This document shows positions 9,589 through 14,591 of a DNA stretch of 64,000 bases, in pieces. Below the pieces are notes generated by a model. That model worked only from the letters and a program-made list of their open reading frames with translations, was not told the origin of the DNA and searched no databases. How positions within the stretch are numbered: the first letter of the stretch is position 1; each line of letters opens with the position of its first letter. Source of the stretch: Clostridia bacterium (GTDB lineage Bacteria > Bacillota > Clostridia > Oscillospirales > CAG-272); NCBI GenBank assembly GCA_017461385.1, contig JAFTXZ010000003.1:82392-146391 (forward strand). The letters run 5' to 3'. The translations under genes and the position numbers were made by a program.

Positions 9589-11193
9589 TTAGTATTTCCT
9601 TTCGCCAAATATTTTGCTTCCAACTCTTACAAGAGTTGCTCCTGCCTCAATAGCATACTCGTAGCTATCACTCATGCCCATTGAGAGTATTGATGTCTCT
9701 TTATCAAAAAGCTTATCAAAAAGCTCCTTTACAATTTTGAAATAACCTAGATACTCCTCCCTTGTGTTACATCTAGGCGCCATAGTCATAAGTCCCTTCA
9801 CGCAAACGCTTTTGTACGCCCTTGCCTGATTGCAGAAATCCTCAACACACTCGGGCATAATTCCACCCTTGCTTTCCTCTCTGCCACTGTTTACCTCGAT
9901 TAGCACGTTTACCACTCTGCCGATTTTTTCTGCCCTTTTGTTTATTTCCTCAAGAAGCGAAAGGCTGTCAACGGAGTGAATAAGGTCCACCTTGTCGATT
10001 ATATACTTTACCTTGTTTTTTTGCAAAGTTCCAATGAAATGTAGCTCTGCGCTTTTATCATAGCCCTCATATTTTTCAAGTAGCTCGTTTACACGATTTT
10101 CGCCGATAACCTTACAACCTAAGGATATTAGGTAGTTTATATCCTCCACGCTCTGCATTTTTGTTGCAGAAAGCAGAGTTACTCGCCCGTTTTTATCAAG
10201 CTCCTTAATTCTTGAAAGCACATTTTCGTAATTCTGTTTTATTTGTTCTTTTCTTGGGTCCATCTTTCCCTCCAGAAGCTCCCTTGCCACTGATATAGGC
10301 TCCTGCTCATCAACATAAATTGTGTGATAATCACTTCGCCTTGAAAACCAGGTTAGCTGACGCTTAGCATAATGTCTTGTAGATAGCTTTAGCTCTGCAA
10401 TGCATTCCTCAAGGCTGGCATTGCCCTCAAAATAAGGAATAAGCTCCTTATAGCCAATAGCGCCAGAGGCAGTATATTGCTTGTCAAGATATCCCTTTTC
10501 AAAAAGATATCTTGCTTCATCCAAAAGTCCCTCCTCAAGCATTATATCAACTCGTTTTTCTATGCGAGAATACAGGGTGTCTCTGTTTTTACAGCTTAGG
10601 AAAAGCACTACGCTATCGTAGGGGCTTTCCTCCACCCTCGACTCCTCATCCCACAGGGATTTAGGCTTCCCCGTGCATTTGTATATTTCAAGGGCGCGAA
10701 TTACCCTTTTTAGATTGTTTTTGTGAATTTGCTCTGCACTCTTAGGGTCAACCTCTTTCAAAAGCTGGTGAACGTATTCGTTGCCCCTTTCCTTAGCCTC
10801 GTTTTCCAAAAACGCCCTGTACTCCTCATTCTTAGATGATTGAGAAAACGATGGATTTTCCAGCACACTGTCCAGATAAAGTCCTGTGCCTCCGCAAAAA
10901 ATTGGAGTTTTTCCTCTTTTTAGTATGTCCTCGATTTTCTCCTTGGCAAGAGCTGCGTAATCTACGCAGGAAAACTGCTCGTCAGGATTTTTTATATCAA
11001 TCAAATGATGTGGCACTAGCTTAAGCTCGTCCTTCGTAGGCTTTGCTGTGCCTATGTCCATCTGTCTGTAAATTTGCATTGAATCACAGGAGATAATTTC
11101 GCCATCAAGCATTTTGGCAAGCTCTATTGCCAAGGCAGTTTTTCCCACTGCCGTAGGGCCAACTATTGCTATAACCCTTGGTTTTTTGCTCAT
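9589..11193 (-). CDS. miaA-yggS: Fused tRNA dimethylallyltransferase (MiaA) and PLP homeostasis protein (YggS/PLPBP)
   Basis: One uninterrupted frame of 534 residues. Residues 1-310 are a full-length MiaA: P-loop GPTAVGKTALA, SCDSMQIYRQMDIGTAKP, and GGTGLYLDS. MiaA adds dimethylallyl to A37 of tRNAs reading UNN codons. Residues 311-534 are a complete YggS/YlmE protein, with the PLP lysine in LLSATKMQ and IGENRVNELLEKY, which buffers pyridoxal phosphate. The junction ELLEGKMDPRK contains an ATG at 10263 preceded by GGAGGG, so the second half may also be made alone. Only the stop codon between two normally separate genes is missing. Confidence 0.9.
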   Translation of the reverse strand: MSKKPRVIAIVGPTAVGKTALAIELAKMLDGEIISCDSMQIYRQMDIGTAKPTKDELKLVPHHLIDIKNPDEQFSCVDYAALAKEKIEDILKRGKTPIFCGGTGLYLDSVLENPSFSQSSKNEEYRAFLENEAKERGNEYVHQLLKEVDPKSAEQIHKNNLKRVIRALEIYKCTGKPKSLWDEESRVEESPYDSVVLFLSCKNRDTLYSRIEKRVDIMLEEGLLDEARYLFEKGYLDKQYTASGAIGYKELIPYFEGNASLEECIAELKLSTRHYAKRQLTWFSRRSDYHTIYVDEQEPISVARELLEGKMDPRKEQIKQNYENVLSRIKELDKNGRVTLLSATKMQSVEDINYLISLGCKVIGENRVNELLEKYEGYDKSAELHFIGTLQKNKVKYIIDKVDLIHSVDSLSLLEEINKRAEKIGRVVNVLIEVNSGREESKGGIMPECVEDFCNQARAYKSVCVKGLMTMAPRCNTREEYLGYFKIVKELFDKLFDKETSILSMGMSDSYEYAIEAGATLVRVGSKIFGERKY

Positions 11194-11269: not shown

Positions 11270-11600
11270 ACGCCTCTTTAAGGCTACACCTCTGCGACTC
11301 ACTTTGTTCCCGTGCATAAGTTCCACTAACGAAAACAAGTTTTCGAGTGTCACTTAATCCACCAGCCGAGCTTGTACCCCTTTTTTTCAAAACAGGAATC
11401 CTTTTGTCGCTTTGCGACATTTCTGCACAAGGGTGCCACAAGAGTGCCCTACTAGGGGAAGGCTACTCAGTTGGTAGTTCGCCAAAAAGCTACAAAAATC
11501 AAGGCGCACCAACTATCAGTCTGGTTCAATAGACGCAGAAAACAAAGGCGCAACGGAACTAGCAGACAAAAACGTACTTTGGGCGTGCGTTAAGGTTGCC
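11270..11600. repeat. Composite interspersed repeat filling the queA-miaA gap
   Basis: The 435-base gap 11194-11628 holds no convincing gene. It contains blocks shared with the array after dapA: GGCTACACCTC near 11281, a CCCTTTTTTTC...AAAACAGGAA block at about 11378, TTTGTCGCTTTGCG at about 11403 and a TGCACAAGGGTGCC...CTAGGGGAAGGC block ending near 11463. It also holds an imperfect inverted repeat AGTTGGTAGTTCGCC / GGCGCACCAACTAT at 11469-11517. The last bases before 11193 carry the AAAGGAG ribosome site of miaA. It behaves like a mosaic of small palindromic repeats. Confidence 0.65.
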
Positions 11601-12824: not shown

Positions 12825-13709
12825 ATGGCAAGAAAGCAGAGCTTATTTTTTGGAAGTGGTGTTGCGTTGGTTACGCCATTCCGAAATGGCGAGATTGACT
12901 ACGAAGCCCTTGAGGAGCTAATCGACTTTCAAATACGAAACGGCACAGATGCAATAGTGCTTCTTGGCACAACGGGAGAGGCATCTACAATAAATGAGAG
13001 TGAAAGAGAGAAAATAATTCCCTTTGCTAAGGAAAAGATAAAAGGGCGAGTGCCACTCATAGTCGGCACAGGCACAAATTCCACCGAGGTGTCGGTCAGA
13101 TATACAAAAATGGCACAGGAGCTAGGAGCAAACGGGTGCTTAGTGGTTACTCCCTACTACAACAAGGCAACTGACAATGGAATCATTGCTCACTATAAAA
13201 AAGTGGCAGGGAGTGTCGATATTCCTATAATTTTGTACAACGTTCCATCTCGCACAGGAGTTACCATTTCCAAGGGTGTGTATAGAGAGCTTTCTAAAAT
13301 CGACAACATTGTAGGAGTTAAGGAGGCTAGCGGAAGCATTTCATATATGCAGGAAATAGCCCGTGAGCTTGGCGACGTGCTTGATATATACACAGGCAAC
13401 GACGAGCTGACCTATTCCACCCTCGCTCTTGGTGGAAGTGGCGTAATTTCCGTATGTGCCAACGTTACCCCCAGCCTTATGCATCAAGTCTGCTACGAAT
13501 TCAAGTCTGGCAATTATCAAAAGAGCCGTGAGCTTCTTTTTAGACTTCTTCCCCTCATCGAGGAGCTTTTCAAGGAGGTCAACCCAATTCCAGTAAAGGC
13601 GTCTCTTTACTTAATGGGTATGGTTAAGAATGAGTTCAGGCTGCCTCTTTGCAAATCAACAAGATTAAGCGAGCTGGAAAGTGTTTTATCTAATCTAAAT
13701 CTCGTTTAG
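12825..13709 (+). CDS. dapA: 4-hydroxy-tetrahydrodipicolinate synthase
   Basis: 294 residues, the normal length. DapA condenses pyruvate with aspartate semialdehyde in lysine and diaminopimelate synthesis. The TIM barrel shows GVALVTPF near the start, LLGTTGEAST around residue 47, YNVPSRTG around residue 137 (catalytic tyrosine) and GVKEASGS around residue 165 (Schiff-base lysine). The protein ends EFRLPLCKSTRLSELESVLSNLNLV (given here only as the last coding segment, 13632-13709). That segment is repeated three more times downstream in imperfect form, a striking oddity described separately. Confidence 0.95.
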   Translation: MARKQSLFFGSGVALVTPFRNGEIDYEALEELIDFQIRNGTDAIVLLGTTGEASTINESEREKIIPFAKEKIKGRVPLIVGTGTNSTEVSVRYTKMAQELGANGCLVVTPYYNKATDNGIIAHYKKVAGSVDIPIILYNVPSRTGVTISKGVYRELSKIDNIVGVKEASGSISYMQEIARELGDVLDIYTGNDELTYSTLALGGSGVISVCANVTPSLMHQVCYEFKSGNYQKSRELLFRLLPLIEELFKEVNPIPVKASLYLMGMVKNEFRLPLCKSTRLSELESVLSNLNLV

Positions 13710-13774
13710 TTACTACACCTCATCCACCGTCTTATGACGGTCCCCCTTCCCCTCCGTACAAAGGGGAAGGCTTG

Positions 13775-13852
13775 GAATTCCGTTTACCCTTATGCAAATC
13801 GACAAGACTAAATGAGTTGGAAACTGTTTTATCTAATCTAAATCTCGTTTAG
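13775..13852 (+). pseudogene. Second dapA 3' end (detached)
   Basis: Reads 25 codons plus TAG in the dapA frame. Against the real end, 8 codons differ synonymously and two differ conservatively (Ser to Asn, Ser to Thr). No start codon or ribosome site precedes it. Confidence 0.85.
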
Positions 13853-14055
13853 TTACTACACCTCATCCACCACCCGAGCGTCCCTTTGGCAGGGCGCAAC
13901 CCTTTTGTCGCTTTGCGCCATTTCCCCTCACAGGGGAATCGCCCCCTTTTTTTCCAAAACAGGAACCCCTTTGTCGCTTTGCGCCATTTCTGCACAAGGC
14001 ACGCCACAAGGGTGCCCTACTAGGGGAATCGCCTCCAAACAAAGGGGAAGGCTTG

Positions 14056-14133
14056 GAATTTCGTTTACCCTTATGCAAATCAACAAGATTAAGCGAGCTG
14101 GAGAGCGTTCTTTCGCAGCTAAATTTAGTTTAA
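14056..14133 (+). pseudogene. Third dapA 3' end (detached)
   Basis: Reads 25 codons plus TAA. About eleven codons plus the stop differ synonymously from the real end and only one amino acid changes (Asn to Gln). The first codons match the second copy, whereas the middle matches the real gene. Confidence 0.85.
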
Positions 14134-14232
14134 CTATCCACACCCTTGCAAGGCTACACCTCATCCGTCTGCTTTGCAGACACCTTTCTGCGCAAGGCAC
14201 GCCCTAAAGGGTGCCCTCAAGGGGAAGGCTTG

Positions 14233-14298
14233 GAATTTCGTTTACCCTTATTCAAATCAACAAGATTAAGCGAGTTGGAAAGCGTTCTTTGCAATTAA
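14233..14298 (+). pseudogene. Fourth dapA 3' end (detached, frayed)
   Basis: Begins like the third copy but has Cys to Phe, then a small deletion after the VL codons that creates an early TAA. Homology to the normal end continues out of frame for a few bases. Confidence 0.75.
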
Positions 14299-14321
14299 AT
14301 TTACTCCAGGCTCAAATTTTC

Positions 14322-14350
14322 TTGACTTTTACTCTTTAGTAGGTTATACT
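14322..14350 (+). promoter_or_regulatory. Promoter for the small membrane protein
   Basis: -35 TTGACT (14322-14327), 17-base spacer, -10 TATACT (14345-14350), 37 bases before the ATG at 14388; ribosome site GAAAGGAG. Confidence 0.85.
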
Positions 14351-14387
14351 TCTAGTATAAAGCATGACATCTTGAAAGGAGTACACT

Positions 14388-14591
14388 ATGGACGCTGAAA
14401 GAATTATACTTTGTATCGTATCCTTCCTTTTCCCAATTGTAGGCATTATTTTGTGGGCAGTAAAAAAGGATGAGGGTAAAATTTATGGTATCGTCGGAAT
14501 CGCTTCTTGGATTATAAGCGCAGTGGTCGGTTTCATTTCGGGATTTATAATTTCCGTGTTACCACTTTTGTTAGAATCCCTTGCTATCTAA
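14388..14591 (+). CDS. Small two-helix membrane protein, 67 residues
   Basis: Two hydrophobic helices (about residues 6-24 and 33-60) are separated by a charged loop, KKDEGKIYG. It has a strong promoter, a good ribosome site and a bidirectional terminator directly behind it, so it is a genuine single-gene unit. The pattern resembles small DUF4190-like membrane proteins, but the match is too weak to name. Function unknown. Confidence 0.75.
   Translation: MDAERIILCIVSFLFPIVGIILWAVKKDEGKIYGIVGIASWIISAVVGFISGFIISVLPLLLESLAI

Follow-up and report, generated by a model that had tools for sequence, protein, structure and literature searches.

The dapA locus and its ladder of 3' ends

The analyzed window is a 64,000-nucleotide stretch of contig JAFTXZ010000003.1 from a Clostridia bacterium (assembly GCA_017461385.1). 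The list of open reading frames and tblastn searches against relatives placed an intact dapA of 294 aa on its plus strand at 12825..13709; tblastn matches were obtained in loci from 17 further genomes of this genus, at 49–81% on the amino acid level, and two of them were partial. The last 26 codons of the working gene, stop included (c1, 13632..13709), were followed on the same strand by three detached tail copies, which were delimited by codon comparison: c2 at 13775..13852, c3 at 14056..14133, which is open to its stop, and c4 at 14233..14310, which is frame-shifted and decaying. The 3' end of dapA hence occurs in four 78-nt copies that make up one repeat family, spaced by 143, 281, and 177 bp from start to start and separated by 65, 203, and 99 bp, with copies of a hairpin repeat, here called R, between them. 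As judged from the sequence and from an alignment of R, the three R of the ladder have three sizes (61, 199, and 78 bp). R1 (13713..13773, plus strand) is a short form of the hairpin repeat; R2 (13856..14054, plus strand) is a long composite with extra modules, parts of which matched many places in the same genome; and R3 (14154..14231, plus strand) is a middle form, preceded at 14134..14153 (plus strand) by a leader with a short inverted repeat directly before CTACACC; leaders of other R were compiled as well.

An initial annotation, made from the letters of the window alone, had stated that the last 26 dapA codons recur three times downstream and that each new copy adjoins a palindromic repeat. 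Both statements were confirmed: c2, c3, and c4 lie at 13775–14310, and each starts 1 nt past a hairpin repeat R ending in GGGGAAGGCTT. Its codon counts were reproduced as well. Between c1 and c2, we counted 8 synonymous and 2 nonsynonymous differences (given there as 8 synonymous and 2 conservative), and between c1 and c3, 12 synonymous differences, stop included, and 1 nonsynonymous difference (given as about 11 synonymous plus the stop, with 1 amino acid). Between c1 and c4 there were 9 synonymous and 7 nonsynonymous differences together with a frame shift near the end of c4, in line with the description of this copy as decaying.

The differences were unevenly placed along the tails. Over the first 18 nt, c2, c3, and c4 mutually agreed at 17–18 positions and c1 departed from all of them at 8–9; the odd one out is the left part of the real dapA gene, not of the copies. 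The last 27 nt were identical in c1 and c2. Because its left side agrees with c3 and c4 and its last 27 nt agree with c1, c2 looks like a mosaic that joins the left part found in c3 and c4 to the right part found in the gene. Comparison with real dapA ends of relatives, proposed in the initial annotation as a check, set the right end of c3 nearer to the dapA of the related genome G003 (24 of the last 27 nt identical) than that of c1 (18 of 27), which suggests, from the aligned bases, that the right end of c1 and c2 was replaced.

Elsewhere in the window, a 534-aa open reading frame on the minus strand (9589-11193) consists of two parts in frame, which we read as presumably MiaA and, after it, a PLP-binding protein of the YggS type; the two may have been fused.

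The hairpin repeat R and the repeated sequences around it

R starts with CTACACCTCATCC and ends with GGGGAAGGCTT. The 679-base region gave 69 matches within this genome, itself included, and 14 of the genus's 29 genomes contained the exact 13-base start of R. Alignment of 32 selected short R showed invariant blocks around a variable hairpin, the two sides of which, by eye, changed together. By eye, too, these 32 R had no terminal inverted repeats, the ends CTACACCTCAT and GGGGAAGGCTT not being inverted versions of each other. In 43 of 121 R, compared with 4 of 121 control stretches, TACACC was directly preceded, on the CTAC side, by a stem of 5 bp or more. In a scan of neighbors only, the left neighbor was in sense orientation for 74 of 122 R, antisense for 34, and absent for 14; within 100 bp, 35 R had a sense left neighbor and 32 had an antisense right neighbor. 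In positions 13500-14400 of the window, the part searched, the R region gave a single Rfam match, to tmRNA on the minus strand and below the threshold. Another R-like end, whose modules resemble those of R2, lies at about 11376-11465 of the window (plus strand), between two minus-strand genes, and at another locus of this genome (contig C6, 14000-25813), also between minus-strand genes, R is flanked by repeated terminator-like sequence.

In the scan of one genome per species, R occurred in at least 116 stretches. The 80 matches listed were all MAG or uncultured records, with an animal gut source where the title gives one, under the names Clostridia, Clostridiales, Oscillospiraceae, Lachnospiraceae, Ruminococcus, and Eubacterium. 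One pattern scan of viral contigs gave 1 contig with two R and, by eye, no gene end beside them. In this IMG/VR contig, the two R copies lie 206 bp apart in a GC-rich setting.

R was compared with known short repeats and insertion elements. GTAG REPs are described, in the accessible parts of the literature on them, as hairpins beside GTAG or CTAC that lie mostly downstream of coding regions, and clusters of REPs repeated together with flanking DNA are reported in the available text of PMC3733652. R may resemble GTAG REPs, in that part of its copies (43 of 121) have a hairpin beside CTAC, but it differs from them in its further conserved parts and in its repeated flanks, among which are gene ends that diverge mostly at synonymous sites; the main text of the GTAG REP paper does not contain the word Firmicutes. 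Nor is a Y1 transposase family consistently present with R. PF01797, which covers the whole Y1 family and not only its REP-associated members, was detected in 8 of the 14 R-bearing genomes and in 4 of the 15 that lack R (P = 0.14), several genomes being incomplete; among the R-bearing genomes, again several of them incomplete, it was not found in G001, G003, G004, G007, G012, and G016. Because the REP transposase is not consistently present, R is not filed as a REP.

IS1549 and IS1634 insertions are flanked by variable direct repeats of 8–514 bp, for which the available part of PMC2266710 proposes no mechanism. Long variable direct repeats also flank R (61 of 121 R; aligned lengths, 20–159), but R is tiny and without terminal inverted repeats, and IS1634-family transposases were over the cut-off in none of the 29 genomes, 3 of which had weak matches. 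The IS1634 and Y1 transposase families do not account for R. The nearest precedents that we found, as far as the accessible text of both sources goes, are the REP clusters with flanking DNA (PMC3733652) and the direct repeats of IS1549 and IS1634 (PMC2266710), and those parts of the two papers make no mention of stacked, synonymously diverged gene ends. Judged by titles and the starts of abstracts, no gene-end ladders of this kind were found in the part of the open-access literature that was searched.

The repeated flanks were surveyed in 81 loci chosen around R in this genome and others of the genus. From 141 R starts, 19 without a recognized end were left out, giving 122, and 1 with short flanks was left out as well, giving 121 testable R. 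In 61 of these 121, the same sequence stood on both sides of R (flank score of at least 20; aligned lengths, 20–159). When flanks were paired across loci, the 95th percentile of the score was 11 and the 99th was 30.5, with the top of this null lifted by pairs drawn partly from the same gene in two loci. In 27 of the 61 cases, later rungs and short genes among them, the duplicated flank was not assigned to the end of a gene of 90 aa or more, and therefore the duplicated material does not consist solely of gene ends. A repeated 3' end was found for 23 of 49 frames with R at most 300 bp downstream, compared with 6 of 476 other frames; by eye, four of the six exceptions hold an R variant or a reversed R. 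The frames in this comparison ran from stop to stop over at least 150 codons in the fetched loci. Some frames taken for genes, as in L095 and L142, might not be real ones. Since the loci were picked for R or for genes bearing R, these and the other rates are not whole-genome rates. In one fetched locus (L028:13774, minus strand), a gene end is repeated in tandem downstream without a recognized R.

The initial annotation had considered the 3' end of a housekeeping gene a habitual insertion point for the repeat. This idea was widened by the survey: R lies beside many genes, and the duplicated 3' ends were nearly always in sense orientation to R (28, one of them called both ways through a reverse frame, compared with 2 that were antisense only), although R had a sense left neighbor within 100 bp about as frequently (35) as an antisense right one (32). 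For six genes, two or three species share an R behind the gene; we take these genes to be mnmG, typA, ybaK, a YitT-like gene, an esterase-like gene of 288 aa, and a small gene following cysS. For the third gene of the same-gene comparison, 18 of 27 rows were covered. At 45 R-to-copy junctions (flank score of at least 24, start within 9 nt of GGGGAAGGC), neither a target consensus nor microhomology was evident, and CTT or GCT occurred within 6 nt at 10 of the 45, compared with 22% in the control. Identical flank pairs also exist (65 of 65 positions at L104 and 50 of 50 at L102). R-linked stacking of gene ends is real and occurs in several species of the genus.

Among the matches listed in a scan of a wider collection, 15 of 127 R had a flank score of at least 20 (null, 2.1%). 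Five of the 15 lay on contigs apparently belonging to G003, G015, and G017, and others were in an inverted arrangement; therefore, the repeated-flank effect looks concentrated in this genus. In two loci of other Clostridia (L179 and L208), R occurs on both strands close by, with long repeated flanks.

Codon differences between genes and their copies

The 42 gene/copy pairs came from 33 loci, two of which are one gene on two contigs, and their 812 aligned codons contained 158 synonymous and 40 nonsynonymous differences (80% synonymous). By codon position, the base differences in the 42 pairs numbered 33, 23, and 174. A neutral simulation of the copy gave 24% synonymous differences (standard deviation, 3%; maximum in 500 runs, 35%), and for a constrained gene with a neutral copy a formula gave an expectation of 39%. 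Local alignment trims poorly matching ends (in the dapA ladder it kept 19 of the 26 codons of c3 and 14 of the 26 of c4); when the alignments were extended ungapped to the stop of the gene, a stricter count that lengthens them toward the stop and not leftward, 167 differences were synonymous and 52 were not (76%). With one pair per locus at 32 loci, 125 synonymous and 36 nonsynonymous differences were counted, and synonymous differences outnumbered nonsynonymous ones at 23 of the 32 loci, were fewer at 5, and were equal at 4.

The bias was also present in the least diverged pairs. In the 18 pairs that differed at no more than three codons, 20 differences were synonymous and 5 were not; with one near-identical pair per locus, the counts were 14 and 5 (P = 0.002). 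Tested against drift, the divergent pairs gave P = 9e-28 and the near-identical pairs gave P = 4e-5. An individual case is ybaK of G003, whose copy had 17 synonymous differences and 1 nonsynonymous difference in 34 codons. For comparison, the functional orthologous ends of four hand-picked genes in G003 and G015 differed by 40 synonymous codons and 6 that were not synonymous.

Most copies specify a protein end almost identical to that of the gene, and the spare copies differ from the gene as working relatives do. The initial annotation had disfavored simple duplication with drift and had proposed a comparison of synonymous and nonsynonymous rates; this comparison (158 and 40 codon differences in 42 pairs, where drift predicts 24–39% synonymous) led us to reject such an origin for this class of loci, at 80% synonymous or at the stricter 76%.

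Proposed exchange between strains and competing explanations

Because the copies differ as working relatives do, exchange from strain to strain is favored over simple duplication and decay. We commit, at roughly even odds (a probability of about 0.5), to the reading that related strains recombine at gene ends marked by R and that ends which formerly worked are stacked in this way, and we take exchange between strains as the source of the differences. Plainly observed are the tie of the copies to R, a difference pattern like that of functional alleles, the clustering of the differences, a difference in rung number between two contigs, and one copy shared with the working end of another species; recombination between strains as their cause and the order of events are what we infer. 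On this account, R would be a mobile or formerly mobile hairpin repeat, its mobility being deduced, that marks gene ends in the genus. Recombination between strains or species carrying R at the same gene would place the complete end of one allele before R and that of the other behind it; the end before R would be translated, and the end behind it would be left without its gene. Unequal recombination later on, using tails and R as homologous sequence, could then add or remove rungs. The copies would look protein-like through recent derivation of each from a working allele, and older ones, such as c4, would decay. The 3' end of R might have been joined first inside the coding sequence either by one insertion with a long target duplication or by a crossover between differently placed R copies. 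Crossing over between two strains whose R occupy different places behind the gene would produce such an arrangement, with both alleles present at the outset, and would require alleles with R inside the coding end; the long target duplication would require later allele replacement.

Evidence on such exchange came from comparisons within and between genomes. Differing codons clustered around identical cores (combined P = 2e-9 for 19 pairs, not all of them independent; single pairs, 0.001–0.89), and two-sided mosaics with an identical core were present in a mnmG-like gene at three loci (L090, L146, and L138). In the 288-aa gene, whose locus aligns at 82% between this genome and G003, the detached copy of this genome (G000), compared over 42 nt, matched the functional end of G003 at 41 positions and its own gene at 32; in the reverse comparison, the working end of this genome was just a little nearer to the copy in G003 (34 of 42 nt) than to the working end in G003 (31 of 42). 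This was the one gene among five hand-picked ones with a copy nearer to the working end of another species. In typA, the copy in G003 was tied (42 of 48 with its own gene, 42 of 48 with that of G015), and the remaining copies in the five-gene comparison most resembled either their own gene or a further copy. In a 238-aa gene of G003, the working C-terminus is unlike that of G015, and the copy behind R runs on into an ending and subsequent bases that resemble those of G015; inside the aligned part, however, G015 matched the gene four times and the copy once. At seven hand-picked loci, sister species matched the gene 27 times, the copy 30 times, and neither 19 times out of 76. The genomes available were one per species, and many of those of relatives were incomplete.

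One locus is present on two contigs of this assembly, with three tails on C7 (169000-174000) and four on C20 (1-5000); the BLAST pieces shared by the two matched at 98.8% and 96.3%, with 6 and 5 mismatches and one gap each. The extra rung on C20 has another R form, which argues against tandem copying of the neighboring rung alone. Another locus is also held twice in the assembly, contig C23 (5738 bp) matching C14 over its full length at 99.98%.

The initial annotation had derived the copies from working dapA genes by recombination at the flanking repeats, and its interpretation as a whole is partly supported. The part that stood is the tie of R to the duplication, the rung number that differs between two contigs, and the copy that matches a working end of another species; against this, such a match was seen in 1 of 5 genes, and the sister-species comparison (27 for the gene, 30 for the copy) was even.

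The rival that survives best, although on balance unlikely, is a one-step insertion of R with a long variable target-site duplication, in which later recombinational replacement of the working copy gives the synonymous differences. It fits the repeated flanks on both sides of R, noncoding ones included, the lack of an evident target consensus or microhomology at the 45 junctions, and the identical pairs at L104 and L102, and direct repeats of 8–514 bp at IS1549 and IS1634 offer a precedent in the accessible part of PMC2266710. However, no IS1634-family match over the cut-off was obtained in the 29 genomes, no terminal inverted repeats appeared in the alignment of R, a plain target duplication would not lead one to expect the 28 to 2 orientation bias, and near-identical pairs, too, were mostly synonymous.

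We think it quite improbable that R and a foreign gene end form a mobile cassette that enters the corresponding gene end of another species by homology and replaces the working end each time. The two-sided mosaics of the mnmG-like gene, the extra rung with a different R form, and the shared end of the 288-aa gene would suit it, but no free form was seen, the one scan of viral contigs having given 1 contig with two R and no gene end beside them by eye.

A reservoir of exchangeable gene ends maintained by selection for use, the other suggestion of the initial annotation, was not upheld and appears very unlikely. Open coding copies at many loci and the difference in rungs between contigs speak for it, but some copies decay (c4, and an excess of nonsynonymous differences at 5 of 32 loci), and switching between ends that encode nearly the same protein end would change little. 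Silent cassettes of alternative C-termini occur in maf, rhs, and pilS systems. The ladders resemble these in having extra gene pieces without start codons near the gene, but their ends, unlike the alternative C-termini, encode nearly the same protein end as the gene.

Little credence can be given to plain duplication of a gene end with neutrally drifting copies: the decay of c4 and some other copies agrees with it, but it is rejected on the synonymous fraction set against expectation (80%, or 76% on the stricter count, versus 24–39%), at P values of 9e-28, 4e-5, and 0.002. An assembly artefact of mixed strains is equally hard to credit. Every named genome is a MAG or an uncultured record, several contigs have a terminus no more than about 250 bp from R, and C7 and C20 hold one locus twice, but the R-to-tail junctions recur at 33 loci in several genomes, each with the sequence of its own gene.

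Integrative elements at gene 3' ends leave a replacement end in front and the old end behind. Remnants of such site-specific elements, which use gene 3' ends (for example, SGI1 integrates at the trmE 3' end, according to the available text of PMC8409611), are the least credible source, rejected for the short spacers of the dapA ladder: its inserts are tiny (65, 203, and 99 bp) and without integrase or cargo, and the tail changes from gene to gene while the one R remains constant across many target genes.

Whatever produced them, these ladders offer something that can be counted: gene ends, across several species of a single genus, of which at least two alleles stand side by side in one genome. 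If exchange between strains at R-marked gene ends were confirmed, the ladders would directly record recombination between strains or species of uncultured bacteria. It is conceivable, though improbable, that R and the gene end together are a new kind of mobile cassette, one that would cross species, home by homology to the matching 3' end, install a foreign working end, and leave the old one behind, making the ladders a readable history of gene-end transfer across a community. Confirmed exchange at R-marked gene ends would also give a handle on the spread of short hairpin repeats, which the available text of PMC8266576 calls "poorly understood."
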